Assembly (NCBI GenBank): GCA_030248225.1 | Contig: JASANE010012231.1 | Location: 62,001 to 126,000 of the forward strand | Direction of reading: 5' to 3' | DNA: 64,000 bases | From: Trileptium ribeirensis | Taxonomy: Eukaryota > Nematoda > Enoplea > Enoplida > Thoracostomopsidae | Part shown: positions 7,997-64,000 of the stretch, one piece after another | How the letters are laid out: each line of letters begins with the position of its first letter | Position numbering within the stretch: the first letter of the stretch is position 1 | The notes under the pieces: generated by a model | Databases searched by the model: none | The model's input: only the letters and a program-made list of their open reading frames with translations | Told to the model about the DNA's origin: nothing | Made by a program: the position numbers and the translations under genes

Positions 7997-8049
7997 TTCA
8001 CGGTGGTTCCAACCAAAAATACTGTGAATACATTTCGGCCCCGGTTTCT

Positions 8050-8780: not shown

Positions 8781-8789
8781 TTCCAGGTT

Positions 8790-9210: not shown

Positions 9211-9377
9211 AATGCTGAATGTATTGTCATCTTAATCTTCAGAGTATCAAATGCTTCTTGAGTATCTTCCGTTCACACCTGACTGAACATGACCATCCTT
9301 GATCGTTCGTTGGTGATATCGTACAACGGTGCTGATATTTTTCCATATTTGGGCACAAATTGCCTGTAGTATCCCGT

Positions 9378-10795: not shown

Positions 10796-10955
10796 ATTTC
10801 GAGGTGATTATTATCTTCTTTGCTAATTGATGCCATTTCGTTGCTTCGCCAACTATGGGGTATCGGTTGACCATACATTTGGATTCGTAGTTGTTGATAG
10901 ACAAAGGCTCCCAAAAAATTATGTCCATATATCGCAATGTTTGAAAAGTTTTTAT

Positions 10956-11336: not shown

Positions 11337-11454
11337 TCTGCTCGATTTTGATTTTCGCCGTTTCGTTTGATTGATTCATTAGGTTTGGTAGGATCCAGTG
11401 TCGATTTTGACTTTGTTGCTGACTTCCCGATCGAGTTTATTTTGTACTTTGTCC

Positions 11455-14147: not shown

Positions 14148-14374
14148 TTTAATATTTACAATTTAGACAGGCTTACGTAGAACGTCCTGGTTATGTGGTC
14201 TACTATTTGCTACTACCGTATAAATAATTTTTATTTTGGCATTTGCCTTATTTCGCGCTAGGGGTTTAATTTTTGTTTTCAAAAATTTTTTGACTACTTT
14301 TATTTTATCAGCAATTTGTCCCACTTTTACACAAAATCGTGGTCACTATGTTATTTTATGGTGTTTTCACATGG
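14148..14374 (-). other. Leader between LTR-like block and gag
   Basis: About 230 AT-rich bases upstream of the gag start on the minus strand. A retrotransposon would have its primer binding site here, but I cannot identify an 18-base complement of a tRNA 3' end. Confidence 0.4.
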
Positions 14375-22979: not shown

Positions 22980-24957
22980 CGTATTCACCTTCGTATTCAC
23001 TTTCGTACTGGGCAGCAATCTCGCTGTAGGACACCGATTTCGCCACCCGATCGACCGAGATACATGACCACGGTCGAATACGTCGTATTGAAGAATTGTT
23101 CACAACAGACGCCGCCGTCCTGCAATAAGGACAACGAGGCGGCAGCACAGGCTACAGTTCTGGGAGGGCACCGGAAGTGTGGAGGCATGATTTAATCGTG
23201 GCGACGGTGGGAGATGTAACAACAGTGTCGGGTAAGTTATTCCAGCTATTCACAACTCGATAGGCATATGAGAATCTAGCACAGTTGAAACGAGGATTTA
23301 CGCGTGCGCGAAGTTTGTAACGGTGGCCGCGGGTACGGTCGTTGCTGACGTATTCAAACCACGTTAATATATCGAAGTTAATGTTACCATGAATGATGTT
23401 ATACAGAAGTATCAGATCCGCCCGAAATCGTCGAGTTTTCAATGTTTGTAACTGCAGAGCTTGAAGTCTGTTCGTATGATAAGTCTTGAAGTCCAGGAAC
23501 CATTTTGGTGGCACGTCGTTGCACGCGCTCAATTAATTTAATGTCATTGTTATAGTGGGGACACCAAGCGCTGGATGCATACTCGAGGCGGGCACGAATA
23601 AGCGAACGATATAACATGACGAAAACATGCTTATTAATATATTTGAATGATCGTCGAATACACCACAGTACATATTCTGAACGACGCACTACGTCGGAAC
23701 AATGTGCCGAAGGTTTTAAGTCACATGATATGGTTACACCAAGATCCTTTTCTCGTTACTTGTTTGGAATACCTAGGCCATCTAGAAAGTACGTATGACA
23801 CGGGTTGTTTCGGCCGAAGTGAAGACATGTAGATTTACTGACGCTGAATTTCATCGACCAAATGTTTGCCCATTCGGAAAAGGCATCAATGTCATTTTGT
23901 AAGTCGTTAATATCAAAGTTTGTTAGAGAAGGATGTGCATGCAGGCGACTGAATAGTTTCGAGCCGTCAGCGAATTTACGTAATGCACCGTAGATATGAT
24001 TATCGACCTCATTAATATATAAGAATAAAAGAATTGGACTCAAGACGGTCCCTTGAGGGACTCCACTACCTACTGGAACCCGACCTGATTTGCTACCATT
24101 AATAACAACGCATTGTTCTCTGCCTGTTAGAAAATTTGTTGGTCCATTGGAGCATGTTACCACTGATACCAAGTGATTCTAGTTTGATAATAAGTCGGTG
24201 ATGGGCTACTTGATCAAAGGCTTTCTGAAGGTCGACGTATATGGCATCCACGAAATCTCCATCGTTTACTACTTTAATCACCCATTCTAGATAGTCAATA
24301 AGTTGGATTGTTGTAGAACGTTTCCGTAGAAAACCGAATTGGGTTTTATTCAACAGAGAATTATCTGTGACGTGTTTAATTAAATAATCGGCTATTATAG
24401 ATTCTAGTATTTTACTACAACCAGCAGTCAAGCTAACTGGCCTGTAATTATTTACATCGCACTTACAACCTTTTTTATATATAGGAGTAATTAAACCCAG
24501 TTTCCAATCTGTCGGATTGATACTGGTCTGCAGTGAATGATTAAAAATGTGGTGAGCGAGAGACATAGTTCTTCATGGATTATAAAATTAAAAATTTTAT
24601 CGATGCCGGGTGCTGCGTGTTTAATAACTTTCAGTTTGTGCATTACCGACTGCGTAGTAACTATTATGTTAGATAATTTCTGTAACGATGCAGGGGTAAG
24701 TACTGGTAGGTTTGACAGGTCTTCGTCGACAAATACTGAAGCAAAATGCGTATTCAAGGCTTCGGCGCAATCTATATCTGTAGTTATCACTGTGCCGTCA
24801 CTTCTTCTAAGTGGCCCTATGCTTGGTTTTGACTCAAGACGACTGTTTACATAACCCCAAAATGATATCGAGTCCCTGTTTATGGTTTTAGCTATTAAAT
24901 ACTCGTAGCGCATCACAGCCCTATTTGTTTCTATTATGGTTAATTCAGCTGCTGCTT
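22980..24957 (-). mobile_element. CR1-like LINE copy L1, 5'-truncated, inserted in hAT copy A
   Basis: The minus strand holds the RT and C-terminal part of a CR1/jockey-type ORF2 in several frames. The 5' end is truncated in the segment between endonuclease and RT. The 3' tail is a short tandem repeat (GTGAATACGAAG about twice, 22982-23010), as is common in CR1-type elements. It sits within the right terminal GGTTCCGG repeat of the hAT element, so it inserted later. It is homologous to copy L2 at 41.5-44.9 kb; both reading frames end LPEL. Confidence 0.85.
23152..24916 (-). pseudogene. L1 reverse transcriptase (CR1-like), broken
   Basis: The pieces in order are: pre-RT segment (24491-24916, SFWGYVNSRLESKPS), RT fingers and palm (24099-24566, NYRPVSLTAGCSKILE; motif A YVDLQKAFDQV), and motif B/C (23756-24172, GVPQGTVLSPILLFLYI; motif C). 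Then come the thumb (23399-23689, RLEYASSAWCPHYNNDIK) and the C-terminal part (23152-23532, AYRVVNSWNNLPDTVV). The catalytic box that should read FADD reads FADG, so one of the two catalytic aspartates is lost. Frameshifts separate the pieces. It would have primed reverse transcription at a nicked target. Confidence 0.88.
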
Positions 24958-41200: not shown

Positions 41201-44200
41201 TGAATGGGCTCAAGAGACTCGAAATGGACGAAATTAGCAATATCTAAGCAAGCCCTCGAGCCATATAGGTGACGTTGGGTTTATTGTTTGGAGCAACCAA
41301 CCCTCTACATAGCTGCACACGGTGCACCGGGGTAGCCGATTTATGCTGCAGGGTTGGGTTAAAAATGGGCTTTGAAGTTTCCAATAAACCTAAAATAGAA
41401 GAAAGCTGCACATCTTTGAAACCGCTATAAATGCATGGATTTTGTTGATATCATTTGTAGGGCGATTCATCCTTTATGTAAATATTACCTTTGAAATCAC
41501 TTTTGACCAGGCGATGTCGGTTAATCGTGAGATGTCGCCGTCATCACCTGGGAAACCGTGATATCGAATCACGGTTATTTCGACGTATTGAGCACAATGA
41601 CTTCTTTTTGCAGCTCACCGATTCTGAAACTGTTTGGCACAGCGAAGCGGACTACAGTTCTGGAAGGCACCCGGACTGGTGGAGATGTGACTTGAAACCA
41701 GCGACCGTCGGTGCACCAACAACTGTTGCCGGCAAGTTGTTCCAGGCTTCGACAGCCCGATACGCGAAGGAGTAACGTGCACAGTCCAACCTGGGGCGCA
41801 ATCGATGTCGCAGCTTATAGGGATGGCCACGCCATCGATCATCGTTCGCAAACTCGAACCAATCGCTGACGCGAAAATCGAAGTTACCACGAATCGCACT
41901 GTAAAGAAATACGAGATCAGCAAGGAAACAGCGAGTAGCCCAAGTGCAAACCCAGGGCACGTAAACGAGCTTCATTCGGCAAATCAGAAAGACCTGGGAC
42001 GAATCGGGTTGCGCGGCGCTGGATCAATCAGCGATCAACTTGATATCTTTCTGGTGGTGAGGACACCATGCACTGGAAACATACTCGAGTATGGACCGTA
42101 CAAGGGATCGGAACAGCATGAGAAAAACCGGCATATTCAGGAATACACCATAAAACATGCTCTGCCCGACGCACCGCATCGGCACAATGCAGAGATGGTT
42201 TCAGTTCAGCAGACACTATCACGCCAATGTCCTTTTCAAACGCTTTATTTGGAATGACTATACCATCGACCTGGTATGTATGACAAGGGTTATTACAGCC
42301 AAAATGAATGCAGACACAATTGTGATCACTAAATGACATACACCATTGTTTTGCCCAAGCCGAGAATGCATCAGTTTCGCACTGTAGATCAGCCGCATCA
42401 AAATTTGTCAGCGAGTTATGTGAATGAATCCGACGTAACATCTTTGAGTCGTCTGCAAATTTGTGTAGAGTGCCGCCAACGGAATCATCAATGTCATTGA
42501 AATACATCAGAAATAAAATCGGGCCCAACGCAGTGCCTCGGGGAACGCCACTTTTTACATCACACCAATCTGATCGATGGCCGTTAACTACAACGGCCTG
42601 CTGTCGACCCGACAAGAAGGACTCTATCCATCATCGAACTTTGCCAGTAACTCCAAATGATTCAAGCTTGATCAGCAACCGACGATGGGGTACACGATCA
42701 AATGCTTTTTGCAAGTCAAGATATATAGAGTCCACGAAATCACCATTGTTTACGACCTGTATTACCCACTGGAGATAGTCTATAAGCTGGACAACGGTAG
42801 ATCGTCGACGGACAAAACCGAACTGCGACTTATTAAGAAAGTTATTGGATGTCAAATGGTACACGAGATGGTCCGCAATAATGGATTTCATACTTTCAGA
42901 TATTCTGCTCGTTAAGCTTACTGGCCTATAATTATCAACGGAGGAACGACAGCCTTTTTTATATATAGGGGTCACAAATGCTAACTTCCATTCAGCCGGG
43001 ACGACTCCGGATTGCAGCGATTGATTGTACAAATGAGCCAAAGCTTCATATTTCATTACGACGCTCAAATAATACATAATTATTGATCAGGTCAATGCCC
43101 GCAGAGGCAAACTTCTTCATTGTTTTTAGGTTATTCATTACAACGTCGGGCGTGAAATGGATAGTGCTGAGCTCGAATGGAGACCGTTGAGATAAATGTG
43201 GTAAATTTGTGATGTCTTCTTCGACAAAACTGCGGAAAAATGCTGGTTAAATAGATCAGCGCAATCATATTCGGACGCAGTGACCGAACCGTCTGCAAGC
43301 GTTAGAGGACCAACTCCACGCCGAGCCTTAATCCTGGAGTTCGTGTACAGCCAAAATGATTTCCTGTCACCATTTATGCTGCTTGCCAACAAGAATTCAT
43401 AACGGCGAATTGTTCTATTGGCTGCAATTTCGGCAACCTCAGCGGATGCTCGATAATTCTCATAACCAACCATGAGTCGGAACCGCAAATATCGCGTATG
43501 GCAGTTACACTGACGTTTATACGCAAGTTCATATCGCCGATCGTCCCACTTGGGCTTAGTTATACTACTCCCGAGCTTGATTATGGGGACGAAATTAGAA
43601 ACGGCTTGGGTGATTGTGGCTTTTATGTTATCCCAAGAGCGACTGCAATCCATGCGCACATCTGGAAGAATCGAATACCTAAGACGAGACCAATCTGTTC
43701 GTTTATAGTTAGGACGAACGGATGCACGGCACACGTATCGGAGATGCCGCGCTAATATAGTAAAGTTGACAGCAAAATGATCGCTTGTGCCAAGACCATC
43801 TGAGGTAAACAAATCACCCAAGATATTAGGCTGGTTAATAAACACAAGATGAAGTATATTGCTGAGGCGTGTGGGAGAAGTAACATGTTGCGTTAAACCA
43901 GCGTCTTCGCAAGCTGTAACAAACTCATCGCATGCATGTGGCAAGCGTAGTTGGTCCAATAAATGTCTTTATAATTGAAGTCACCAACTAATACGACTAT
44001 TTTATTATGAAAACTACAAAGATTCCTGATCAGGGAGCATAACGATTCGTTAGAAGCTGGATCAGTTGCAGGCGAGCGATAGCAGCAGCAAAATATAACA
44101 TCGCCGATGACGAAGGGACCGACACCGCAATAAATTCAGAAAATCCAAACGTCTCAACAGGAAAGACAGTTGCTTTCAAGCACGTTTTCACTAATATAAG

Positions 44201-50200: not shown

Positions 50201-50739
50201 ACTCCGAGCGATACACGTGGTTTCTTTTTCTTTGCCATTCAAACCGGTGTTGTTTCTCTCTGGTATTTGATAAATAAGGGGTAGTGCTGATCTATTGTGG
50301 AGAACGGAGGATTGATCGTACATGTATGGTTAAATTCTATTGTTTCACAGTAATTAAGCTCTGCGGTACATTATTCTCCATGAACAATACAATATCTGTT
50401 GGGATTCTAGATTCTTAGGATTGAAAGCACTTGAAACAAGAATACTACGTAGTATCGAAATGGGAATAATCAACAATGGACTTTGGTATTATGCTTTGGT
50501 TATGCATTTTAATTCGGTTTGTCCTACAAACACAAGCAATATGTGTTATTTTAGGCAATATTTACAGTTCCTGGTGAATTTGTGGCTTGCTTAACTCTTC
50601 TTGGTGAATTGCCTGTTACCCCATGGACTCTACTTAATTTGAAGATACTTGTAAAAGATGCGACAAATGTAGTTAGCCCTGGATCTGAGCTGGTCCATCC
50701 ACTTCAGGTTTACTACGTACATCAAGTTGTACAGGGTCG
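32097..50739 (+). CDS. MED14: Mediator complex subunit 14 (MED14), N-terminal part, six exons, incomplete at right
   Basis: MED14 is the backbone subunit of the Mediator complex, which links transcription factors to RNA polymerase II in the nucleus. Joining 32097-32284, 34426-34531, 40129-40223, 45199-45277, 46021-46167 and 50555-50739 gives 800 nt (266 codons plus two bases) without a stop. All junctions are GT/AG and the phases fit (2, 0, 2, 0, 0, 2). Recognition rests on the conserved N-terminal block: LLPRKSDVER, then HSTRQLFLRLLAVVKWA, then QQAILFCDTADRL, then IDVLTLGTYPRLP, then GEFVACLTLLGELPVTPW. These follow metazoan MED14 in order, and the spacing is collinear with the family. Animal MED14 proteins are about 1400 residues, so more than 1100 codons lie to the right of the window. 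Start: the ATG at 32097 is the first in frame after a stop at 32037. The introns hold many TEs. Compared with vertebrate MED14 the sequence is diverged. Confidence 0.92.
32285..34425 (+). other. MED14: MED14 intron 1 (2.1 kb)
   Basis: GTAAAG donor and TTTTTCAG acceptor. It contains an inverted-repeat element (33678-34093). Otherwise it is AT-rich with no gene seen. Confidence 0.85.
33678..34093. repeat. Short inverted-repeat element in MED14 intron 1
   Basis: The left end (CCAAGGTTTTTTGGGTCCAC, then GGTGGGTCTGGACCCAAATT) pairs imperfectly with the reverse complement of the right end (TAGGATTTTTTCAAAG, then GACCCTGGGTCTAGCTTGGG, then CCAAATTTTTTTG). The arms are about 60 bp. No target duplication was found, so MITE is likely but unproven. 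Confidence 0.5.
34426..34531 (+). CDS. MED14: MED14 exon 2
   Basis: It encodes KVSIDRFAHSTRQLFLRLLA then VVKWAKNSDKVDTCD, the most conserved part of the MED14 N-terminus. The acceptor is TTTTTCAG|G and the donor GAT|GTACGT; it ends in phase 0. Confidence 0.92.
36966..37035 (-). repeat. tRNA-like relic (SINE head)
   Basis: On the minus strand GGCGGAGTGATCTAGCGCG resembles a box A/D-arm, CTGTCAA an anticodon loop, and GCGGTTCAACTTACG a box B that is intact only in its first half. The stems are poor, so this is a tRNA-derived relic and not a tRNA gene. Confidence 0.45.
38755..38848. repeat. Short GACGCGGAC / GTACGCAATTT repeat
   Basis: GACGCGGAC appears at about 38764 and 38789 and GACGCAGAC at 38814. 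The last two are each followed by GTACGCAATTT, with a further CAATTTCG phrase at 38752. The region is a local, degenerate direct repeat of about 25-27 bp. Confidence 0.6.
39005..39092 (+). repeat. tRNA-like relic (SINE head)
   Basis: A box A-like GGGTTAGTAGAGGCTCTTG is followed about 55 bp later by a box B-like AGGTTTCGATTCCT, which carries one extra T against the GGTTCGATTCC consensus. An anticodon loop-like GTTGACAAG lies between. It looks like a degenerate tRNA-derived SINE head. Confidence 0.45.
40129..40223 (+). CDS. MED14: MED14 exon 3
   Basis: It encodes KISYFLSQQAILFCDTAD then RLFDISKVKLVGA plus the first two bases of an arginine codon. The acceptor is GTTTAAG|A and the donor CG|GTAAGT. 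The segment matches the MED14 FLxQQxxLFxDTADxL region. Confidence 0.9.
41652..41975 (-). pseudogene. L2 C-terminal domain downstream of RT
   Basis: The frame reads LADLVFLYSAIRGNFDFRV, then FAYRAVEAWNNLPATVV, and ends at LPEL followed by a stop. The F-Y-R-x-V-x-x-W-N-x-L-P text is typical of the C-terminus of CR1/jockey ORF2 proteins. It is frame-shifted relative to the RT part. Its exact role is not known to me. Confidence 0.8.
42028..43077 (-). pseudogene. L2 reverse transcriptase, one in-frame stop
   Basis: NYRPVSLTSRISESMKSII and motif A (SIYLDLQKAFDRVPHRRLL) lie in 42631-43077. After a single TGA at 42631-42633 the same frame continues at 42630-42028 with GVPRGTALGPILFLMYFND (motif B) and HKFADDSKML (motif C, both catalytic aspartates present). 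So the RT core is interrupted by one stop only and is less damaged than L1. The target-primed reverse transcription function is lost through this stop and through frameshifts on either side. Confidence 0.88.
43138..44503 (-). pseudogene. L2 apurinic-type endonuclease and linker, broken
   Basis: The endonuclease begins about 44503 with LNARALVNKRDAFHYLV and PDFVAVTKTW. The family has TETW at this place and that glutamate is catalytic; here it is lysine. The next piece (44030-44242) reads RTRGRGGGILILVK. The last piece (43138-43959) is open for 273 residues and holds FTSDGLGTSDHFAVNF, with the SDH box intact, then the linker WLYTNSRIKARRGVGPL to RT. Frameshifts lie near 43960 and 44240. It would have nicked the target DNA. 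Confidence 0.85.
44654..44908 (-). pseudogene. Open stretch upstream of L2 endonuclease (possible ORF1 end)
   Basis: About 84 codons are open on the minus strand up to a TGA at 44654-44656 and contain YPLIADRWTNNVKPDL and AARMKLFKLLEEMSKF. The frame has no start at its 5' side and lies just ahead of the endonuclease, so it may be the end of the LINE's ORF1. I do not recognise a domain. Confidence 0.4.
45199..45277 (+). CDS. MED14: MED14 exon 4
   Basis: It completes the arginine codon and encodes LPTFQVPAAIDVLTLGTYPR then LPAAIK. IDVLTxGxYPRLP is a hallmark of MED14. The acceptor is TTTTCAG|A and the donor AAAG|GTAATT; it ends in phase 0. Confidence 0.93.
45278..46020 (+). other. MED14: MED14 intron 4 (0.74 kb)
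   Basis: GTAATT donor and ATTTATTCTAG acceptor. AT-rich; nothing else seen. Confidence 0.85.
46021..46167 (+). CDS. MED14: MED14 exon 5
   Basis: It encodes SKFIPENPITTKEQACILKR, LGQVVEHRIISSAFPLP and NVNVKNGM. This matches the MED14 segment after the YPRLP block (proline-rich start, then a helix with LxQxxxxR). The donor ATG|GTAAGT is consensus; phase 0 on both sides. Confidence 0.9.
46168..50554 (+). other. MED14: MED14 intron 5 (4.4 kb)
   Basis: GTAAGT donor and TGTTATTTTAG acceptor. Strongly AT-rich. It contains a 219 bp tandem duplication (46497-46936) and, at about 47030-47190, text such as GTCTGTTTGTCCGTCCGTCC that is common in invertebrate non-autonomous repeats. No gene is seen. Confidence 0.8.
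46497..46936. repeat. Tandem duplication, 219 bp period, two units
   Basis: Unit 1 ends at 46717 and unit 2 at 46936, both with AAATTGGAAAAAACAG. The right 130 bp are nearly identical (for example ATAAATACTGTCATTTTCTT). The left part is more diverged and contains a long T run in unit 1 only. Confidence 0.9.
50555..50739 (+). CDS. MED14: MED14 exon 6 (last one in the window)
   Basis: It encodes AIFTVPGEFVACLTLLG, ELPVTPWTLLNLKILVKDA and SELVHPLQVYYVHQVVQG plus two bases of an arginine codon. It corresponds to the MED14 segment with GEFxAxLTxxG, PWxLLxLxILVxD and LVH. The donor is CG|GTAAGT. The next exon should start with a residue completing the arginine codon; I do not find it in the remaining 13 kb. 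Confidence 0.93.
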
Positions 50740-51724
50740 GTAAGTTATTGTTTTGTAAAAAGGTTGACAGAAATAGTGTGCCTGTAGTGAATTGGTGAAA
50801 TACAACTTAAATTATTTGTTGAAATAATTATTGTTAATTGAACCTAAGGAAACACTATGGGTTTTATTATGAATTTCGCATGCTTTGCGTAAAAGGACGC
50901 GACCGATGCGAACGGAGTTTCCTCACTACGCGTTGAGCTAGCAAAAACTTAAATTTTTTACATCTGTATGATTGTGGCATTTTACTGTGGGCATAACATA
51001 CTTTTAACCTGGAGGCAATGGCACAAACCTATTAGCCTTTTTCTTCGTTTCAAGTAATGTCACACATATCTACTTTGTCAGAGGAAATTAATACTACCAC
51101 CACGAGCACTGTTCAATCTTCGCGGATGAAATATAACATGTATGCCCGACATTAGTTTAGAAAGCAAAAATATGTTGCAATAAAGGATTTGGAGTGTAGC
51201 ATCATAAGTCCAAAATGAGTTCTAAATTTCACCAGATCGTTACGCAATCGCCGTATGATACAAGAATTTATGCTGTTACAGACAATACAAAAGTAGTCGA
51301 AAATGATACAAATTTCGTGTAATCATAATTGATAGTAATCGATTTTGGCTGAAAATGTTTGAAATGGATCAGAGACAGTTGTATATAGGTTAAGCATTCA
51401 TTGTACTATAGCATATCTTAGTTCTGTGTCTCGTTCTATGGGAGTTTCTTTTAATCCATATCGATATAAATTTCAATTGATTTTTGTATTTATTTTTTGG
51501 CCACAGGTGTATCATTCACAGTAAAAATATAAAGTAGCATTAATAACAAACTAGTAACGATTCAGCCAATCACGGTCGACATTATGACAGCAAATGTACG
51601 CATATTCGTTCGTGGGCGTATAGACCGCTTAACGTCATGGAGAATAAGAATATTGCTTGTTCAGAAGTTATTGAAACATTTAGTGCAGTAATTATACATA
51701 TTTTCAATTTAGTGCAGCATGTGT
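50740..51724 (+). other. MED14: MED14 intron 6, start (to the I/R1-type LINE)
   Basis: The consensus donor GTAAGT opens an intron that continues past the right edge (more than 13.2 kb). This first part has no recognised gene or repeat. Confidence 0.75.
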
Positions 51725-51730
51725 TGCAGT

Positions 51731-52300
51731 AATGGATACGCAGCAGCAACCATCTGCTTAAATGTAACCACAACAACCGACTCCAAACCCACAAATCACC
51801 CCTTCCTCAACCCATACACTAATCACAAACTTCTATACCACAACAATAAGCTTGTCCACCTCCCTGAAAACATCATCGCAAAAGTTACTATAACCACTCT
51901 GACCACAATCCCACCTTTCTGCCACACATCAAGGACCCATAGCAAGTACTTCTGAAGAATGTGAAGGTTTTGTAGCTACTTCCGCAATTGTTACTCCTCT
52001 GGGGTCATTATTTGAACGTCCAAGGAGTTATGCTACTTTGCCGATATTTCTGTTGGCAATAGTTATTCCAATAACGAATGCTTCGGCTATGTATATTTGC
52101 GTCAACAACACTCCGCGGCCGCATCATTGTCGGGACATAATCCCGATCTTGATGTGGCTGCTTCTGAAAATTCTGTTGGCGCCTTCTATGGGAGCCAAGG
52201 TTTCTCGCTGTTGTGCAGAACCTGGTTATCCAGGAAGACGGGTGTTTGTTGTTGGTAACAAAAATACAGAATCGCTCGGTTATGTCTCATGCTCAAAATG
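51731..52300 (+). pseudogene. Possible ORF1 of the I/R1-type LINE
   Basis: It begins ATG GAT ACG CAG CAG CAA (MDTQQQPSA) and continues PQQPTPNPQITPSSTHT after two TAA codons, where the surrounding Q/P-rich text suggests former CAA codons. A serine/threonine-rich part follows (STSEECEGFVATSAIVTP). No zinc knuckle could be read with confidence. Assignment as ORF1 rests on position upstream of the endonuclease. Confidence 0.4.
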
Positions 52301-52309
52301 GTGTAATAG

Positions 52310-53000
52310 AAGCAATATGTTGATAGGTATTCAAATAAATGTACAGCATCATTCAGATTCTCATTTAGAACTCTAGAGAAGAATTAGAGGCTATAATTGC
52401 TTACGACACAGGCCATATCACCCACCGTCCTAAAATAAATACCTCAATAGCACTGATCCAAGAGCCATGGGCCTACAATGCTAAGTGTAATTTAAAATTA
52501 ACTCTATCACAATTAGGCAAGAAGTGTTGGACATAACAGTATATTCGCCTCATGTTGCTAAATTAATCAGCTACCAGAAAGTCCATGATGACGAATCTTT
52601 TTCTACTTACCGATACATCTCATTTCAGGTTGGGGTTAGTCAAACCTCAAGATGCGATGAGAATAGTGTCACGGTGCGTATATTCAATAGGAAAGTTTAT
52701 TCTCAAAATGTCTGCACGTTTTGTCGCATTAAGTGTACGAGGTATGACAAGTACAGAATGCAACAAGACTGTTATTAGAAAAAAACAGAAAGCTGGAGGA
52801 ACATTTGCTCCAAAATTGAGAGCTGTAATGAGAATTCCAAGTTACGAACATTATAACGTACGTTGTAACGAACGTTATTAAATAAATCAGGGACACCCGA
52901 ATTGGTTTATCTAAAAGGCCATTACGGAAATATACGAAGACTGCACCAAAATCCCCAAACATGTTGCTTGATACGTTAGTCCCCGGACCTGTCGTATCTG
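52310..53000 (+). pseudogene. Endonuclease of the I/R1-type LINE, broken
   Basis: TSIALIQEPW at 52441-52470 is the characteristic endonuclease text of jockey/I-type LINEs, with the catalytic glutamate present. Upstream LIGIQINVQHHSDSHLEL resembles the domain start. Downstream frames (52524-52778, 52585-52881) show RFVALSVRGMTSTECNKTV, then the sequence decays. Confidence 0.6.
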
Positions 53001-53107
53001 ATTACATGGACTGCTTTTCTAGTCGAGGTCTCCTAGCAAATATAGCAACCATAAGCATAATATCGTTGATATAAATTAGATCAAAAATGCTCTCTCCACC
53101 ATTTTTA

Positions 53108-54023
53108 GCTTCAACACTCTAGGTCCAGATGGTATATTTTCAGCACTACTAAAATATGCAGGTGTGCAGTTATATGACAAACTAGTATATCTGTTTATTG
53201 CATGCTTATCGCGCGGATATATCCCACAACAATAGAGAATTTCAAGCATTGTGTCAATTTCAAAACCTGTGAAGAACACTTATGGTGATCCAGAATCTTT
53301 CAGACCTATCTGTCTCTTCTGCTTTGTTCTGTTCTAAACACACTGGAGAAGCTACTAGGCAGATATTAGTGTTATACATGCCGCATTGACAAAAAGCTCA
53401 ATCCTAAACGACAAACATACCAGCGGGAATTGTTTTAAAGGCTATATTGTCATCGGTTGCTTCTTAGATATCGGAAGTACATTTGATAGCGCTAGAACCG
53501 AGGCATTTATCAAGGCATTTGCAAAATTTGATGTATATACCCATTAGCATCTTCGTTTGGCTCAGAAGCTTAATGAATTGTACAAAGGCACAGACCATTA
53601 TGAATAAAATAAAGGTTGTGGTAAACCTGTCACCAGAGCAGTGGGTGGAGTTTAATCTCCGTTACTTTTGTGCATGGTGGTTGACGACCTAAACCGCTTG
53701 ATTGCAACGGGTGTAGATTCCCAGTCTTACTCTGATGACATTCCAGTAATATGCGTTAGTATGAAAAGCTCTACCGCTACCAAACGTTTTTCCACTGCAC
53801 TGGGTGAAAAGTTAGCCTAGGAAATTGCGGCATTGTGCACTTTAGAAGAGGTCCTGCACCGCTGGCCACAGTGGACTTTAGACTATTTAATGCAAATCTT
53901 GTGCTTGTTGAACTAGTCAAGTATGTAGGTATCTATTTGGATTCTAAATTAAACTACAAACCTTATTTGGAACAGTGGTCAACAAAAGCACTCGTGCGAT
54001 CATGGTATGCAAAACTGTCATAG
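53108..54023 (+). pseudogene. Reverse transcriptase of the I/R1-type LINE, broken
   Basis: The readable text in order is FNTLGPDGIFSALLKYAG, DPESFRPICL, FLDIGSTFDSA at 53461-53493 (motif A, aspartate present) and PVTRAVGGV then SPLL (motif B). YSDD at 53728-53739 is motif C with both aspartates. The thumb reads KYVGIYLDSKLNYKPYLEQW (53900-53990). Several stops and frame changes interrupt it, so it is inactive. Confidence 0.8.
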
Positions 54024-54170
54024 GTAAAAACCTGGCGCCTACTTCCAGCCAAGATTATATGGCTGTATAATACAGTCATTGTTCTGATAACAAGCTATCT
54101 GTATAGTGTCATCGCCACTGGGTTAACGTTTTTCAAGAGAAAATTATCTTGCGTACAGCTATTTGAAATT

Positions 54171-54893
54171 TTGCTAAGTAAAGGAGCTATTAGGACTATA
54201 CCAGCCATGGGTACACTAGCACTACTTGGCATACCAATAATTGAAACAACAATTACTGGTAAAGCCATTTTAAATTACCATAGATTGAAAACATATTGTG
54301 GCCTTTGGACTACTAATCAACAACACAATGGTCATTTAACAATAAATCAAATGGTTGGGAGTATACCCATGCTCAGCGTAACCAGTGACATGACGCTCAA
54401 ACAGCATCATGATTCCTGCCCCTGTAGTACCCCATTATTCCAGAAAGGGTAGACTGTGTGCGGAACAAGATGGAGTCTGTTACTCTGTTAATTGATACAT
54501 AGATGGATCACGCATGGACTTGCATGACCGACAAGGTAATGGAGCTGTTTATATATTGAACCAAACAGGTCAAAATATATCTTTAGGTAGGCTAGCGTCA
54601 GTCTTTCAGGCTACTTATGCAAACTCAACAAGCCAAGACTCAGGTCGGTTGTTTCGCTGCTCACTGGTCATAATCATGTGACCGCTGATCTTTTCAAGCT
54701 GGGAATGCTTCAGAGCAGTCTTTGTAAGACTTGTAATACAGAAGATATCTCACAACACGTTGCTCTCAACTGCAGCAGCGTGACTGAAGTTAGCAATCAT
54801 ATGTATGATCTGGATCCTTTAGATCTTACTAGCCTCTGTCAAGGCGGAATCAAGGCAATAGTGAGAATTTCCGTGGAATGCGGCAGATTTTGA
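54171..54893 (+). pseudogene. Post-RT and RNase H domain of the I/R1-type LINE
   Basis: 54171-54452 continues the connection (LSKGAIRTIPAMGTLALLGI). RNase H begins with YIDGS at 54496-54510 (first aspartate present), followed by GNGAVYILNQTGQN and SVFQATYANST. The frame 54678-54893 reads HVTADLFKLGML, then CKTCN and ISQHVALNC. This CxxC...H...C arrangement occurs at the C-terminus of these LINE proteins. Confidence 0.7.
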
Positions 54894-54930
54894 TGTAATT
54901 AGAACTGGGCCTTGTGACGGGTATGTTTTT

Positions 54931-55190
54931 GCCTACACACAGTTACATAATTTTGTCCCCACCCTAATTATATCTATCTTTAGTGGGACAGGTGAAATCG
55001 GAACTTCAGAGAATTGCCTTTCAATCAAAACATTAAATATGCCGCCAGCCAGTGCTTCTTTTGTATTTTGAGCTTCTCCTGGTAAAAACGGCAAACTGAT
55101 CATTTTTAAACGCGATTATATTAAAAAAACTCGTATGTCCTAAAAACCCTCGATGTGTAATCAAATTAGCCAGCATATATGTGTAACAGC
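54931..55190. other. Spacer before the 5.1 kb tandem repeat
   Basis: No gene. It probably includes the 3' untranslated region of the I/R1-type LINE. Confidence 0.4.
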
Positions 55191-58100
55191 GTGACGCTGC
55201 TGCATTAACGCACTTCCAAAACGCAATGCCCATATGACCCCGGCTATCGTAACCTCGAGTGCGAACCTAAGGGGTTTAGAATTTTTTCTTTTTCTGTTCG
55301 GCCAAGAGACTACGGAGCTTAGCAAGCCGCAGGAGCTCTTCACAGGATGTGTTGTGATCCTGCCGGACGGGTTGCGCACGTAGCCTAAGTGGTACTACCT
55401 TTGAGGTCCCGAGGGAGGTTGGCTCCGTCTCCTGCTGTCAGGCAAAGAGCCATACCACTATTCCCTATCATCGTTCCACCGGGAAGTGTGTTAAAGTTTT
55501 AGATTGACGAATTTTCTACTTTCCTGAACGATTAATTTATTTAGCCAGTGGCCCCCACTAGATGTACGACAAATCCCTTGACGTTTAACGTCGGATCGCG
55601 TGATTTCTTATTTGGCGACATTCAGCGAAAGTTTGTTTTCGGGTAAAACGTTCTCTCCTTAAGTCGCACGAGTCGTACTCACACAAGAGCACAATTAAAT
55701 AGGAATCGGCGAGTCACGCTAAGGTTTGCTTCTTCCGTGCGTGTCTCAAACCTGCACATGGGTCGTCGATAGGGGTGACGGATTTCAAACCCCTTCAGTA
55801 CATATGTCGCTACCATTGGTCAGTAAAACGCATGGACACATTTGGGGTTTTTTGATTGAGTATTTATTGATAATCCAAAACCATATATATATATATAGAC
55901 ATGATATATTGTACGGGAAAATACATAGATACAATGACAACGGAATAGTACGCTACTGGGAAAAAACTGGAGGGATAACGAATGGGCATGTCGGAGTCAT
56001 TGCCTTTTTCATGGGACACTCACATCTGGTTCAAATCACGGCGTGAACTACTAAACCTTCCAAATGACAGCTGCGCTTACCTTACTCGAAGAATGGGACA
56101 GAGAGAACATACATTTAACACGAGGCGGTATTCAGTTAGTTATCGCCATTCGAGTAACTACTACAAGGGTACTCCGGTTAAACAATAGGTTCAGGTAAGC
56201 TAAAGGCGGCAAAACAACGGATGAATTCGAATATACGGTTCGAAGCTTACACTTTGGGGTTTTCTAATTTTGCTCATCTTAATGAACGGCTACGGTACAA
56301 GATAAGTGAACATTGACAGATAGTGTAAAACACCGAATGGATGAAAGTACGGTAAGTTATAACAAATCAGCAAAGGTTATAATTGAACAATCAACATGGG
56401 TGCAATATAAGCAAAAATACACGTTAACATGGGTGCAACATGTGCGTTTACGATAGGAACAACTCCTAATTTCGAGTGCGACGGCGCAACGTTTTCTTCC
56501 TTACATGCATACGTATGTATGAACGGTAACCGCGGGGACACCAAATATTCCTTAGTATGGGGTACAAGTGTCCTTAGTGCGTGATTCCAGGTTCCTATGA
56601 AATTGCCCTTCAAATGTGAGAACAAAGATACAGAATTTTGAGCTTAAGTCTATACTCATTAGCAACATAAATAAATACGAAAAGCGAACTTTTTCTTGTC
56701 CATGATCATGAGCCATGATTTACAATGGGCAGGGTAAAATCGTTCCTGAGCGGCTTAGAGATCCACGTAGAAAGAGATTGGGACCGAATTTTCTAACTTT
56801 TAAAGCTTTCCTAGCACAAAATTTACTGCTAAAATTTATAATGTTTTGTGTACATTAATTGTATTTTACCAACACAGGAATATTGATATTTTGAGTTGAC
56901 GGCCAAATTTGTGCATTTTAAGAAGACGCTAGATCGAGCCGGCTTCAGGGAAAAGTACTAAATGGTCGATTTTGAGCCCAAAGCGGGTTTACGGAGGGCC
57001 TTCGTTCGCGCTCAGCTCGGCGGAACGATGCTCTAAAATCCTACGAAAATTTACGGTTGAAACATAAGTGATTAAGAAAATAAATCCTTAATACTAAGAT
57101 CGGCAATATTAATTCGGGTGCTTCACGTCCTGATATAAATTTGTTGGGTGTTGTTTAGTTCATTTATAGCATATATTTATCTAGTCCCTTAGAAGGTTTT
57201 AAACGGGCTCTCTCTATGATTGCGGAAGGGTTGAAGGCGTTGCGTAGCTTTCGATTTTCATTACCTAAAACGATCGTATAAACGCAGTCTCGGTGCTTGT
57301 AAGCAATTTGACTTGATGCGGGTCGAAAGGTACTCAAGTAGATTATATACCAATTCTGTTGTTAAGCTCTGGCAAGAGAATCGTAATAATTAACGGCTCG
57401 GTGCGGAAAAGCTATAGACGAGTTGACAACAGTTTATGTAAATGCCTTGGTTCGTCCTAGGTTTAATTTCTTAATCTTGGGAAATAAATACTTGCTTGAT
57501 CCCTAGTCAAAAACAAGAAATGCTGCGAGTAGGCCACTGCCGAAGCAATGAACCGCTCTGGGGCTATTTCCAATTTCTACGACCTCACTTGGGTTGAAAT
57601 GCATAGTTTGTGTAACTGATTTCTCCGTTATTTGTATGTCTTACTCGGTTTTTCAACCTAGAAGTCTTTATATTACATTTGTGAATCGCTCTTCATCGCT
57701 ACGACGCGACGATAGAAGTACGGGACGGGGGACGAGCTCAGTCGAGTCCCTGATTTAGGATACAACAAGCAAATCCTATGCATCCAATTGATCTGTATAA
57801 ATTGAGTGGCTATACATTATAATTATGCGAAATTTTATTTCAACTTCAGGGCATAGGGGCAGGGGTTAAAATTACATTTAGCTAAATGAAAAGTTATTTG
57901 GGAATAAGCCTAAATACCGATGCCTTGTAGGTCATCGGCACTACCCTAAAAGCTTTTGCTATTTCAACTTGAAAACTGTTCTCTAAAAGAGTTCCATTTG
58001 CTATTAAACATTAGTTAACGTTTCTAATGATTTCTACTTATTAAAACAAGCCTGTAAACTGCAGATCCGGTTGCCGGTACAACCGTAACAAATTTACCTA

Positions 58101-58269
58101 CTAGCTTTCTCTAAATTGTACGATTTTCTCGGTTCTGGCCGAGGTCTTTAGTCTAATTCATCACAGTGCTGGGCTAAACCTATGATTTTGAATTGATCGA
58201 TAATTTGTCAGCCTTTCTCTGTGAAATTTTGCACAGGGGCTGGGTTCGGCCTAATTATTCATTCTATTA

Positions 58270-58340
58270 GGACCGGGTCAACGGTCCTCACAAAAATTGG
58301 TCCGTCGGGCCGAGACCCGATATCGCGTCTAGCGATATCG
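58270..58340. other. Two perfect hairpins in T1
   Basis: The first is AGGACCG/CGGTCCT (58269-58275 with 58282-58288), loop GGTCAA. The second is CGATATCGC/GCGATATCG (58318-58326 with 58332-58340), loop GTCTA. Both stems are perfect. The corresponding hairpins in T2 lie at 62374-62393 and 62430-62454. Confidence 0.85.
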
Positions 58341-58696
58341 CTAACTTTTATACACAAAAATGTTTCCCACTGCCTTTAAATTTACCAACTCTGGTAAATT
58401 TAATATTTCTATCGAGGCAGCATCATATCGGACTTTCGCGACTCCGATAGCTTTCGTGCTGCCTTGATGAATATATACAGAGAGAAACACTGAAAGTTTG
58501 GAAAATACGTGCAAAAGCTAAACCAAAACCGACTTATGAATTGCATATACTGCGAAGAAATCTATGAAATTTGTGTAGACCCTAAGCGGCTTTTGCCCTT
58601 GCTCGGGTCCGCATTTTTTATAATTTTTGAATGGGCCACGGCTTTGCCGGGCTTAATAGCGCAAGGAATGCCTAACGGGCCTCTATTTGTAGAGTA

Positions 58697-59045
58697 AAAA
58701 TCGTCAAAATTCCTGGAAGGAATTTTGAATTATTCACGTTTAAAGTTTTAGGTGGGGGCGGACCCCTATTGGGTCGTCGGGTTTGTGATTCCGACGCAAT
58801 ATTGTCAAATTTTAAAACTTGTATTCGGTGGCAGACATTCCTACGAAGAAACGGCCAAAGTTTCAACAAAATTCCTGGAGGGAATTTTAAAATATTCCAA
58901 ATTTACGTTTTCGGAGGGGGCAAGCCCCTTCAGGGTCATCGGGTTTGGGATTACGACGCGATATTCGGAAATTTTATGAACTAAATGGATAGCTGAGATC
59001 CTTATAAAGATCCGGAAAAATTTCAGCCAACTTCCTTCAGTAATT
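58697..59045. repeat. Two ~160 bp subrepeats with hairpins in T1
   Basis: Two units begin with a perfect hairpin AAAATTCC/GGAATTTT (58706-58726 and 58868-58888). Each continues with GGGG...CCCC and a CGTCGG...CCGACG segment (58770-58800), then ACATTCCTACGAAGAAAC or its relic. A third, weak unit begins near 59016. In T2 the series has three units. Confidence 0.75.
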
Positions 59046-59640
59046 TTTGAGATGCACTGAATTTTCACTCAGAGTGAGCTACTTCACTCTCTAGACATTA
59101 GATTAGCAAATTTGGTTGCGGGCCGATTACACTTTACGCTCGATTGTAGAAGCGTAGGTTGCTACTAACATCCTAACAAAATCTCAGCAAAATTGCCAAA
59201 AGCAACAGTGTGCCAGGTAAATTTTATCGATTACGAGTAACTATTAATAATTATTCCGATCACGATTTTGCAACGATATCTTCTCATAAAATGTGTTATT
59301 TCTAGCAGTACTGCCTAATCAAATTTAGATTCAGCAGACATGGCCAAGGATGGTACGGAACCTTATTCCGAATATTCATTGAGGAAAGTTTTATTTAACC
59401 TCTGTCGGCTCAAATGTTACGTTTTGGGCTACTAACTCTACTCAAGAAATCACACAAAATAGATCTACACGCGGGTGTCTCCTTTATTTATGCCTTAACT
59501 CATCGACCGACGGAAGTTAGCATAACTTCGACTATTCAGTGAATCCTTAGAAGCGGTCAACAAAGACAATGGGTCTGCGGGACAAGCTAAGACGGCCCAA
59601 CTAGTGCGTACAAAAAAAAAGAGCGGAGAGGGCTCTCAGA

Positions 59641-60299
59641 GGCGGAACAACACGACTAATCAACACCTCCACTAAGCCCCCCCACTCTCTGCCCTTACCC
59701 TCCCCAACAACAGTAATCTCCTTTAATAAACCCCCCCCCCTGCCCACACTCACATACCCGGATCCGTCTATTCGACGTCCACCCCCCCCCCCCCATTCGC
59801 CAAACCCAAAAGCGAGAAAGCCAAAAAAACACAAAATAAATCAACCTCAACAAAATAAAAAGAACAGCAGAGCCGGCCACACCCACCCGCACCCCCCCCC
59901 GCCCCACACCCGAACCAACCAGTAGATCGTCCCCGCCATCCCCCAATACCGCCCAACAAATAATTTATGAGCCACTAAATCATACAAAGTGCTCTCAGGA
60001 CCTTTCGGACTATTAGACCCAAAAAGAAACCCAAAAGCAAACTCTCATCACCACAAATTCGCATATACAACCCTTTACATAAAACTCTAAAAATATATAA
60101 CAAACCCCCTAAAGCCTCCTCCAATCTACACGACTAACACAGCCGCACTCTCCGCGACCCCACCTCGCCCCCTCATCTATTCTTCTCCTCAGTCACGGAC
60201 ATTACTCATACAATTACTGCACACACTATACTTTCTTCCCTATTTAAATTATAACTTCAAACCCAAATACTCAAACTAAATATAAAAACTAAAATCGAC
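59641..60299. other. G-poor, C-rich strand-asymmetric segment
   Basis: By my count there are 59 G among 660 bases (9%), against a C content several times higher, with C runs of 9 to 14. The minus strand is therefore G-rich and could form R-loops or G-quadruplexes. The counterpart in T2 (63860 on) has normal G content as far as the window shows. Frames here are glycine-rich by-products of the C runs. Confidence 0.85.
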
Positions 60300-62373
60300 G
60301 TGACGCTGCTGCACTGCGCACTTCCCAGACGCAATGCCCATACGACCCCGGCTATCGTGACTTCAAGGGCGGACCTGATGGGTTTCAATCACGCGAATGT
60401 CTTTTCCCACGCGAGTCAGGCCCAAGAAATGACGGAGCTTAGCAAGCCGCAGGAGCGCTTCACAGGATGTGTTCTGATCCTGCCGGACGGGTTGCGCACG
60501 TAGTCTACGAGGTACTACCTTTGAGGTCCCCAGGGAGGTCGGCTCCGTCACCTGCTCACAGGCCAAAGAGACCGTACCACTATTCCCTCTCCACGTCTAA
60601 CCCGGGAAGTATCAAATTCTTTCTAACTTTCTAAAAATGGGCAATTATTTGGTTTTGTTTTAGCCAGTGGCCCCCACTAGGGTCCGACAAATCCCTAGAC
60701 GTTTAACGTCGGATCCGCGCGTATCTAATTTCCTAGTTTGGGTGCTCAGCGTGAGTCTAAAATTTTCTTTTCTAATGAGTCGCACCAGTCGTACCTATAC
60801 AACAACAATGATTAATAAACTAATTTGTAATCGGCGAGTCACGCTCAGGTTTGCTTCTTCGATGCGCGTGTCAAACCTGAACGTGGGTCGTCGATCGGGG
60901 TGACGGATTTCAAACCCCTTCAATTCCTATCGCTACAGTGGGTCAACAAAACACTTACACAATTCGGGTTTTCAGCGAGCATTTATTGATGAGTTACACA
61001 AAAATTTACGGGTACGCGGACAGATACATATTGTACGGGCAGATACAATAGCGTTATGTCACATTTATAGCACGCTAATACGTAACAAGCAGAGCATCGG
61101 TTGGGGAGGGTCGCGGAGTCATCGCCTTTTTCATGGAACTCACACAGCTGAGTCAAAACACGGCATATACTGTGAAGCCTTATCTTATGACAGCTGCGCT
61201 TACCTTACTCATGGAAAACAGTAGTGGGTGAAGTTAAGATTAGTACTAATGGGTGCTACGGTTAGTTATCGACATCATGAAGGCGCCATCGAAATAACTA
61301 GTGGCTCAGTACTACATTCGCTGACAATGTTGGGTACTCCGATACACAATAGGTTCAGGTAAGCGAAAGGCGGAACGAGGCGGGGATACGGGGATGAGCG
61401 TGCAACGGGACGTTTGCGAGACTTCATCTTGCTCATGCAAATCACAAACTTATGGTACATAATGATCAGGTAATTGAATTCGCAATTAGTAGCGATGCGG
61501 TTAACTTATGACAACACAACACAATAATGGATACGACAATGCTTGAGGATATCATGACAAGAGTATGCAATATTCCGCGGTACGACTCTTAAGTTCTTTC
61601 TAGGTGTGCGACAACGGTACGATACGAAATTTTCTCCTACTCGCATACATACATACAAGTTTGAAATGTGATATAAACTTTGTTCTGAAATATCCGGATA
61701 CACTACATTATTTTGATCCTTACTCTCTACTAGATTACTCCACAAGCACGGTGGAATTCAGGCCCTGATTTTCGTAAATTCTTTGATCCGGGTCATGGCA
61801 GGAACAAATGCTTCAAATACAACATCTTGAGTTGCAACAACAGAAAAAGGAACGATTGGGGCGGTCTAGGCTTTCGGACACTTACGGGGTCCCGGTTGTC
61901 TGAGCTTGGGACTAAGTTTTGAGCGTTTCTTAATACTAGATTTTGTCGCACATACTATACGGGTTGTACCTATGATTTTAATCGAAACGAGCAATATCAG
62001 AGGCGAGGCCTCGTGGGCCATCGGCACTACTCTAATAATACTAAAGCCTGCCTTAATTGGACTTGGGAAACATTCAAAAACGAACTCAATTTTGTATTAA
62101 AATTTAATTGTTGTCTCGAGCAATTCCTGCTCGACAAGACGAGGCGATAAACGAAGGCCCCGGTTGATAGGACAACCGTAGCCAATCTTCTAGCTTAATC
62201 CCATTCGGTAGATATCTTCAGGCTAATTTGTCTCCTAATTTTCGATCGAGATTTGAGCTTAAATTCCGTAGGGGCTGGAGAAAACTACAATTCGCTATAT
62301 CTTCCTAAATTACCAGCCTTTTTCTACGAACTTTTGCATGGATGCTGGGTTTGACCTTCTACTTCGAATTCCT

Positions 62374-62454
62374 AGGACCGGGTCAACGGTCCTCATAAAA
62401 ATGGTCCGTCGGGCCGAGACCCGATAGACTCGAAGTCGCATTTGGCGACTTCGA
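62374..62454. other. Two perfect hairpins in T2
   Basis: The first is identical to that of T1 (62374-62380 with 62387-62393, loop GGTCAA). The second reads TCGAAGTCGC/GCGACTTCGA (62430-62439 with 62445-62454), loop ATTTG: two base pairs differ from T1 and both stay paired. Confidence 0.85.
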
Positions 62455-62724
62455 CAATCTTGAAATCCTAAAATATTTTCACTGCTAATGCAACTTATCA
62501 ACACTGGGGAATTTGATATTTTCCTTTCCCCAGCTAAAACGCGTGGAAAAGCAAGATCAAAACAGACTTACGAAAATAGTCTGAATTATGAAATTTGAAC
62601 TACAATCCGAGCGGCGGTTGTGCGGGTCGGATCTAAATTGCTCATAACTTGTGAACGGGCCACGGCTTTGCCGGGCTCAATAGCTTAAACGAAAGGCCTA
62701 CTGGGCCTCTATATCTACAAGAAA

Positions 62725-63235
62725 AAACGTTAGAATTCCTGGAACAGACGTCCAGATATCAATGTGTAAAGTTCGGGTAAAAGCGGATCACTATCGGGCC
62801 GTCGGGTTTGTAATTCCGACATGATAAAGTCAGAGTTTATGATCCTACCTTAAAACAGACATGCCTGCGAAGAAACTGCGAGAGTTTCGCCAAGATTCCT
62901 GAAGGGAATCTTAAAATAATTTACTTTTAGTCTGAAATATACATTTTTAGTGAGGTTAGGCCTCTTCAGGGCCGTCGGGTTTCAGTTTCCGACTCGAAAT
63001 CAACGGGTTTTAGAGTCCTATTCATTAGCGGACACTCTCACGAAGAAACTGCCAAAGTTCTGACAAAATTCCTGAAAGAGGACGCAAGTTACTTGTATTT
63101 TCGCGTTTCGCTGGGAGTGACCCTTTTTCGGGTCGCTGGACCTAAGTTCTGTGTCGATATTCGAACGTCTCAAACATTGAATCTATAGTTCGGTTCCTCC
63201 GAGAGGTCCGGGTAGAATTTTAGCAAATTTGCTGA
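62725..63235. repeat. Three ~160-173 bp subrepeats in T2
   Basis: Units begin near 62732, 62892 and 63065. The middle one has a perfect hairpin AAGATTCC/GGAATCTT (62892-62912). The GTCGG/CCGAC stem is kept in the first two (near 62800-62820 and 62973-62993), and the third is degraded (GGGTCGCTGGACC). The first unit has lost its AATTCC stem. Confidence 0.7.
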
Positions 63236-64000
63236 GGTAATTCCTGTAACGCGCCAACTTCCTACCGGTGTGAGCTGGCTCAATAGCGTTGCCTTAAATG
63301 AGTACATCTGACTGCGACTTAATACCAAGTTTATTCGACATATGCTACCGGGAGCATTATTAACTTATGGTCAGGATTTGGGCTAAGTTCCTATGGTAGC
63401 GTAATCCAAAAATACAAATAAAAATCCAATTGATAGAGCTCCAAAATCGGCGGACGGTTTCACGTCCAAAGAAATCAATAAACCAAGAAAACATCTAGCA
63501 TAAAGTCCTCGGCAAAGTACTTGACACGGATGATGTGGCATGACTGCGGATGATTCGGAGTGCTAATTAAAAGTCTTATTCAGCCAAAATTCTTTCAACC
63601 AAAATGTTTAGTTTAACCTCGGTCAGCTCAGGGAATAGTTTCCAAAATCCTACCTCGACTCAGGGAATCATGTAAAATTATTCGGCGCGAGTGTCGCGCT
63701 TATTTGTGTCCTAACTCTGTGACCGAGGGAGGTCCAGTACGACTTTGGTTTGAGAAGAGGGCGTCAAATATTTCCGCTGGCGATTACGGGTCTGCTGGAC
63801 AAGCTAGGGCGGACTATCTATCAGGTAGACTAAAAGCGCGGACAGGGAGTCCGTAGCAACTAAAGCTTAAGACGGATCAATGCGAATAGCTTACATCTAC
63901 TTCTGTTAATCTGCTCACGTATCGGGCCTAACAGACACTCTACCTCTACTACGGATCCCGGTCTCCCTGTCCACACTTACGTATGCGATTCCAATCGGGC

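Follow-up and report, generated by a model that had tools for sequence, protein, structure and literature searches.

The window, a 64,000-nt stretch of Trileptium ribeirensis DNA, ends in repeated sequence with conserved hairpins, which raises the question of what kind of element the repeat is and whether its stems are maintained as structures. The first-pass annotation had described a tandem repeat constrained as structured RNA or as a DNA structure, possibly the most novel element in the window. We identify the two copies, T1 and T2, with high confidence as long terminal repeats (LTRs) of a Ty3/gypsy-like retroelement that carries an env-like region; a complete LTR is about 7.4 kb long. The supposed novelty is instead the LTR of a high-copy retroelement. 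This strongly favored identification draws on the ends of the copies, their TATA and poly(A) signals, a PBS-like junction, dispersal, nesting, and gag and protease sequences beside one copy. The sense strand of the element is the minus strand, and its parts are located as follows.

55182..59632 (right limit approximate), minus strand: T1, probable LTR, delimited by alignment with T2 and comparison with a complete LTR copy
55182, minus strand: U5-side end of T1 (sense ...CTGTTACA)
55863..55868, minus strand: T1 poly(A) signal (AATAAA on the sense strand), placed by the T1/T2 alignment
About C8103:130575: resumption of T1 beyond the window, by comparison with a complete LTR copy
60290..64000, continuing past the window to C8103:129571, minus strand: T2, probable LTR of the recent, high-copy type
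60290..60981, minus strand: predicted extent of the T2 U5, nearly invariant among 27 copies chosen by U5 similarity (L009, L021 and L023 omitted)
60982..60987, minus strand: T2 poly(A) signal (AATAAA on the sense strand), 82 nt past the TATA box, in 28 of 30 copies
61064..61069, minus strand: TATA box of T2 (sense TATAAA), kept in 29 of 30 copies
59600..60290, no strand assigned: tract rich in A and C and poor in G, separating T1 from T2 (A 35, C 37, G 10, T 18%)

The LTR measures 7221–7547 nt (7.2–7.5 kb) in five copies and has short inverted termini of the TG...CA type (TGTAACAG...TTACA). Its sense start is TGTAACAG in six of seven copies, the remaining copy ending 5 bases short, and its sense terminus is ATTACA or a near match. 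As in Ty3/gypsy elements, a promoter and a poly(A) signal lie within the LTR, and TATAAA and AATAAA are identically spaced in all 28 copies carrying both; T1 has no TATAAA at the place matching that of T2. Transcription would start approximately 25–30 nt downstream of the TATA box, so that U5 would span approximately 690 nt and U3 approximately 6.5 kb. The 30 T2-type loci come from 40 that were scored out of 2637 candidates, and the low diversity of U5 is partly a product of this choice because loci were picked by their likeness to U5. A common flank, beginning with TGGGGGCCACGCCGTGAG 2–4 nt past the LTR end, was shared by five of the 30 copies. Across the assembly, 23 exact LTR/PBS-like junctions were found versus 0 for the control, and the fixed TGG-initial sequence at these junctions is a candidate PBS. 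The family is dispersed across many contigs at high copy number. No target-site duplication was detected among seven copies compared, several of which have badly assembled flanks.

Coding sequence was found on the sense strand behind one copy, on C14098, in the order gag, env-like stretch and aspartyl protease; gag with a zinc knuckle followed by protease, as in Ty3/gypsy elements, was thus seen at one locus. The CCHC knuckle of Gag (zf-CCHC) scored 21.2 bits against a cut-off of 20.8, and the protease reached 3e-5, below family cut-offs, with its domain split between two pieces. The env likeness was judged by eye from position and motifs, and Pfam and PDB sequence searches returned no match for this region. 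No gag was found beside any other copy whose flanks were examined, which would make most of the copies seen solo LTRs.

Homology between T1 and T2 spans 55190–56087 and 60299–61210 (73.2% over 948 columns), with further homologous pieces at 58201–58408 and 58502–58964. The divergence at about a quarter of sites given by the first-pass annotation holds for these conserved blocks only, as approximately 56200–57900 hardly aligns. Nor is the element a tandem repeat: T1 is interrupted by T2, with T1 homology on both sides, and resumes outside the window. That this juxtaposition is a false assembly join rather than a real nested insertion is a serious possibility, albeit one we consider somewhat improbable. 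A/C-rich tracts flank T2 on both sides (59651–60151 in the window; 3851–4251 in L031), and copies look mosaic, with approximately 1.75 kb of T1 unrecognisable at the break. Of 30 left flanks, 12 were skewed, all 12 toward A+C on the deposited strand regardless of element orientation. Against a false join, T1 homology continues in order past T2, as after a real insertion, and the right flank of L039 (8201–8351) is G+T-rich on the deposited strand. The tract at 59600–60290 is probably an artefact of the assembly consensus because the skew tracks the deposited strand and not the orientation of the element; this strand test led us to reject a biological origin of such tracts through untemplated synthesis or hypermutation. 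The identity of the element as an LTR is independent of whether the T1–T2 join is real, and the strand-bound skew at repeat edges is a practical warning for users of the assembly.

The hairpins that first drew attention lie in the following parts of T1 and T2.

58269..58288, minus strand: hairpin 1 of T1 (AGGACCG/CGGTCCT)
62374..62393, minus strand: hairpin 1 of T2
58318..58340, minus strand: hairpin 2 of T1, in the putative U3 (arms 58318–58326/58332–58340)
62430..62454, minus strand: hairpin 2 of T2, in the putative U3 (arms 62430–62439/62445–62454), approximately 1.36 kb upstream of the TATA box
58698..59190, minus strand: T1 subrepeats, three units, the third degenerate
62724..63245, minus strand: T2 subrepeats, three units

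Hairpin 2 is fully complementary in both T1 and T2, and comparison of alleles confirmed that two inner pairs are altered on both sides, as previously noted. Across 19 alleles, with the hairpin-deleted C8103r omitted, 94.2% of cells were paired and 11 were double-changed; the covariation score was 0.244 versus 0.125 after shuffling, and none of 500 shuffles scored as high. This covariation is confined to two adjacent pairs in few lineages, and two covarying pairs were reached in 360 of the 500 shuffles. All 11 double-changed cells fall in T2- and C17977-type alleles, with none within T1-type copies; the allele listing omits L075, L082 (with a shorter loop) and copies repeating a listed allele. 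The hairpin 2 arms changed less than the sequence between and beside them: in 15 old copies, excluding L075, whose hairpin is deleted, 14/270 arm sites differed from T1 versus 37/245 in loop and flank (Fisher 1.8e-4, a test that treats sites as independent, which those of related copies are not). Among 16 T1-type copies, found among 40 that were scored out of 1556 candidates, six hairpins were perfect, nine mismatched and one deleted, and C8103r brings the deletions to two in all; such breaks in single old copies are as expected from decay after insertion.

Pairing was also compared between strands, again without C8103r. On the sense strand, 76/80 cells were paired, including 72/72 in the nine inner pairs, versus 70/80 and 67/72 on the opposite strand. 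Non-Watson-Crick cells on the sense strand included 8 G-U versus 2 A-C across the 19 alleles, and most transition cells of this kind are wobbles on the sense RNA.

Hairpin 1 showed Watson-Crick pairing in 59 of 63 cells across nine copies, none of its pairs having a second Watson-Crick type. Covariation had been claimed for the subrepeat hairpin, with T2 credited with a single unit; all three T2 units are present, and the 8-bp stem is intact in units 1 and 2 of T1 and unit 2 of T2 and broken in unit 3 of T1 and units 1 and 3 of T2. Over these six units, 68.8% of cells were paired versus 68.9% after shuffling, with no covariation. In parts of the 3' module, the T1 and T2 consensus folded more strongly than column shuffles, which do not keep dinucleotides (10 of 58 z-scores below −3). 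The nine-copy consensus gave 17 of 22 z-scores below −3, in eleven windows from 57948 to 58915, while 32 z-scores obtained from six further pairs of diverged repeats in the window averaged −0.14 with none below −3. U5, the most conserved part, showed little excess folding, and helices predicted on both strands over the module revealed no strand preference (23 G-T versus 29 A-C cells).

Of the constraint originally proposed, one stem compensated between lineages is supported, whereas the tandem structured-RNA locus is not. For hairpin 2, the few informative events suggest, from sequence, that RNA fits better than DNA, and a function as an RNA stem is quite conceivable, though just short of probable. 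Lying in U3, hairpin 2 would be situated at the 3' end of the genomic RNA; source lineages would keep it as an RNA stem serving the element's own RNA, and inserted copies would lose it through ordinary mutation. Export, stability, packaging and 3'-end formation are candidate roles, indistinguishable here. Against this reading stand the shuffles that match the number of covarying pairs, the mismatched and deleted old copies, the module's lack of overall strand preference and the weak folding of U5.

Alternatively, the paired changes could stem from template switching (quasi-palindrome correction) while the palindrome was being reverse-transcribed or replicated, one arm being copied onto the other in a single step without selection for structure, an explanation we regard as unlikely but not negligible. 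Retroelements readily switch template, the two double-changed pairs lie side by side and the stem comes close to a perfect palindrome; however, loop and flank change more than the arms, and the G-U states on the sense strand represent single steps not expected from a one-step switch. Less likely still is a role of the palindrome as DNA within the promoter region of U3, where it might, for instance, form a cruciform or a paired protein-binding site: its position upstream of the TATA box and the strand-neutral module helices agree with such a role, but the arm letters differ between lineages, unlike a sequence-specific site, and hairpin 2 wobbles on the sense strand. The earlier view of a structured non-coding RNA gene that was duplicated locally is almost certainly wrong, for although the hairpin-bearing conserved blocks and the lack of a long ORF would suit it, the family is dispersed at high copy number with LTR signals, gag lies behind one copy and an Rfam match is absent.

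Rfam 15 gave no match at the gathering score within the window and six weak matches, all below that score, in 55000–64000; known RNA families and tRNA were rejected as the identity of T1 and T2, as was a coding reading. The terminal hairpin, minisatellite and missing target-site duplication had prompted us to consider a Helitron/Helentron-like element, an option abandoned when the LTR signals and gag came to light. We also rejected reading the conserved AGGTAAGC as a splice site, since its complement is conserved upstream. Exact-pattern searches of viral contigs and of prokaryote genomes found no relatives, and none was found in phages.

To return to the RNA-stem reading, retroviral genomic RNAs carry cis-acting elements close to the 3' end, such as the constitutive transport element, whose stem-loops serve the RNA itself. 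Hairpin 2 would share this position, but it would lie inside U3 and has no Rfam match. More speculatively, and with rather low confidence, the sequences might reflect an envelope-bearing giant animal retroelement in which a long-U3 folded RNA module, its stems rebuilt pairwise as active lineages diverge, acts as a new cis-acting signal aiding export, packaging or finishing of the genomic RNA. If the U3 stem is a real RNA structure, the many solo LTRs would provide natural variants for testing.

An apparent structured non-coding RNA thus becomes an LTR family of unusual size. The review PMC6431247 describes Burro, a group of giant planarian LTR retrotransposons of gypsy-like type with an internal region above 20 kb, one polyprotein, accessory BIR, BCL2, MATH and ankyrin domains, and env-like sequence placed between gag and protease, an arrangement that the review regards as first seen there. 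The present element resembles Burro in its gypsy-like Gag with a CCHC knuckle, the apparent placement of its env-like region and its probably very large size; unlike Burro, it has gag and env-protease in two overlapping frames, and the 9 kb open frame covered here lacks Pfam matches to BIR, BCL2, MATH or ankyrin. The same source describes Ogre of dicot plants, gypsy-like with LTRs of 1.9–6.5 kb, and large retrotransposon derivatives (LARDs), whose non-coding part lies between the LTRs. Ogre shares the extraordinarily long non-coding LTRs, which here are longer and accompanied by an env-like region, in a host that the surrounding LINEs suggest is no plant; LARDs likewise move a long non-coding stretch within an LTR element, whereas here that stretch is the LTR itself. 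The passages of literature on giant or long LTRs contained no LTR above 7 kb, which is no proof of absence from print. One survey (PMC6238403) set LTRharvest to LTRs of 80–1500 bp with 2.5–11 kb between them; a 7.4-kb LTR falls outside these limits, and such elements may therefore be under-counted.

The repeat unit that appears in the window as T1 (55182-59632) and T2 (60290-64000) is an LTR whose sense strand is the minus strand. The first-pass annotation had described a non-coding tandem repeat, a reading that gave way once T2 was found to lie in T1 and LTR signals were recognized. The sense start of the unit is TGTAACAG, its sense end is ATTACA or a variant, and T1 at its end at 55182 reads CTGTTACA. 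TATAAA is present in 29/30 copies and is followed 82 nt beyond by AATAAA in 28/30, with identical spacing in all 28 that carry both; T1 has kept AATAAA and not TATAAA. Five copies gave LTR lengths of 7221, 7390, 7468, 7530 and 7547 nt. One flank past the LTR end is common to 5 of the 30 copies and opens with TGGGGGCCACGCCGTGAG after 2-4 bases; 23 exact LTR/flank junctions of this kind occur in the assembly, against none in the reversed control.

The element is dispersed and abundant. When the assembly (687 Mb, 20,229 contigs) was searched with the first 634 bases of T2, 2637 candidates came up, and the 40 that were scored matched at 99-100% and were spread over many contigs. At 30 loci similarity sets in at nearly one position, give or take a few dozen bases, and in the seven copies for which more flank was available it stops at a single position about 7.4 kb further, one of these falling short of it by 5 bases. 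No ORF longer than 150 aa was listed within the LTR in two copies examined, and the one copy checked for internal repeats had only a 44-base minisatellite and a single short pair. The minisatellite lies close to the LTR's 5' end in sense orientation (7237-7564 of that copy, L034), and each unit carries inverted arms, TGACCA...TGGTCA. Across 27 copies aligned to window 60290-62390, diversity is about 0 in U5 and climbs to 0.2-0.34 in U3, and several of them have a mosaic look; lineage recombination, selection on U5, copy choice and chimeric assembly are alternative explanations. Another diverged LTR copy, in reverse orientation and with hairpin 2 lost, lies at C8103:141438-145905 on the contig of the window; its similarity to T1 is about 73% across 1447 columns.

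In one copy, on contig C14098, the shared flank leads on the same sense strand into coding sequence:
L044 (C14098:47031-57030), 2-8472, minus strand: gag frame overlapped by a frame in which an aspartyl protease follows an env-like stretch
The first frame is open for 733 aa and includes a CCHC knuckle, and the second, of at least 2096 aa, overlaps it and extends to the protease. Between knuckle and protease, a basic cleavage motif precedes a hydrophobic stretch, with a likely transmembrane stretch later. By eye, this stretch is env-like; it had no sequence match in Pfam or PDB, and gag was not found in the other loci examined. According to PMC6431247, Burro was the first element seen to carry an in-frame env between gag and pol. 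There env lies between gag and protease, and the C14098 copy has a like order, as far as its env-like stretch was judged by eye.

T2 lies in T1 with poorly assembled joins. Homology to T1 reaches about 59632 and picks up again, in order, at about C8103:130575, T2 ending at 129571, and about 1.75 kb of T1 is unrecognizable at the break. The tract between them (59600-60290) is rich in A and C and poor in G and T (A 35, C 37, G 10, T 18%), and a similar tract lies beyond T2 (L031 3851-4251). Among 30 left flanks of 200 bases, 12 have 64-96% A+C and the remaining 18 have 43-57%. A biological cause would make the skew follow the element, but in all 12 it is the deposited strand that is rich in A+C, with the element forward in eight and reversed in four; since the skew tracks the contig strand, such a cause was rejected. 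The tracts are likely a consensus artefact, presumably arising where piled-up reads disagree and the alphabetically first base is chosen. Support from letter order is mixed: the T1 base precedes the T2 base in the alphabet more often than the reverse in the tail (31 to 17 and 22 to 15), but 59380-59600 shows this lean too (51 to 35), compared with 119 to 124 and 158 to 198 elsewhere, and the right flank of one locus, L039, is rich in G+T. No target site duplications were found in the seven copies compared, several of which have poorly assembled flanks. The exact joins, the missing duplications and the mosaic-looking copies should therefore not be over-read.

The proposed relatedness of T1 and T2 stands for the conserved blocks, which are homologous (73.2% identity over 948 columns in the longest), whereas the intervening stretches hardly align. 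In a nine-copy alignment, 17/22 folding z-scores in windows at 57948-58915 fell below -3 (range -0.95 to -6.79, against column shuffles). In the four windows that follow, plus-strand z-scores were weak (-0.70 to -1.87) and minus-strand ones mixed (0.29, -0.70, -4.31, -4.22). With T1 and T2 only, 10/58 z-scores fell below -3, compared with 0/32 in controls.

Hairpin 2, a stem inside U3 (58318-58340 in T1, 62430-62454 in T2) whose letters had been read correctly, was followed in T1, T2, seven further copies (lost in one), 20 more T2-type and 16 T1-type copies. Counting each base pair in each allele as a cell, eight alleles paired in 70/80 cells on the plus strand and 76/80 on the sense strand, including 72/72 in the nine inner pairs. 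Over 19 alleles, sense-strand pairing (94.2% vs 88.5% shuffled), cells with both partners changed (11 vs 3.4) and the covariation score (0.244 vs 0.125) were each matched by 0/500 shuffles. The double changes are limited to two pairs, a number reached by 360/500 shuffles, and all 11 cells belong to T2- and C17977-type alleles. Among the 16 T1-type copies the hairpin is perfect in 6, mismatched in 9 and lost in 1; in the 15 with a stem, sites unlike T1 number 14/270 in the arms and 37/245 in loop and flank. Loss of one member of a direct-repeat pair accounts for the 9-base gap that makes the T1/T2 alignment unclear at the hairpin; further T1-type copies, among them L081, retain both. Compensatory arm changes had also been claimed for a subrepeat hairpin; that example had been picked from intact units, and the stem is kept in three of six units and broken in three, pairing at 68.8% vs 68.9% shuffled. 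The claim survives for hairpin 2 and not for the subrepeat stem.

In an LTR element, the transcript of U3 lies at the 3' end of the genomic RNA. A stem held in U3 while its letters change would serve that RNA. Sense-strand wobbles in hairpin 2 (8 G-U vs 2 A-C cells) agree with this reading, though they go back to a small number of events, and among helices predicted for both strands neither strand is preferred (23 G-T vs 29 A-C). Alternatively, the paired change could have been made in one step, by a switch of template inside the palindrome. Very long LTRs are already known: PMC6431247 quotes 1.9-6.5 kb for Ogre, PMC3485330 describes LTRs longer than 3 kb as 'not frequent', and PMC3601003 notes conservation tied to stem-loops within long R regions. 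The T1/T2 LTR stands at the long end of the range, and the U3 stem would be the new part, if shown to act.

Other elements lie elsewhere in the window. On the plus strand at 50500-54900, a decayed element with reverse transcriptase and RNase H remnants discernible by eye, which we take to be of LINE type, ends just before T1. A broken LTR-type element on the minus strand (8000-14500) is strongly A-rich in sense, with an AT skew to -0.41 and a weak retropepsin match at 10956-11336. Two broken LINE copies, 63.8% alike, were also found:
23756-24566, minus strand: broken LINE copy, reverse transcriptase match (PF00078)
42028-43077, minus strand: broken LINE copy, reverse transcriptase match (PF00078)
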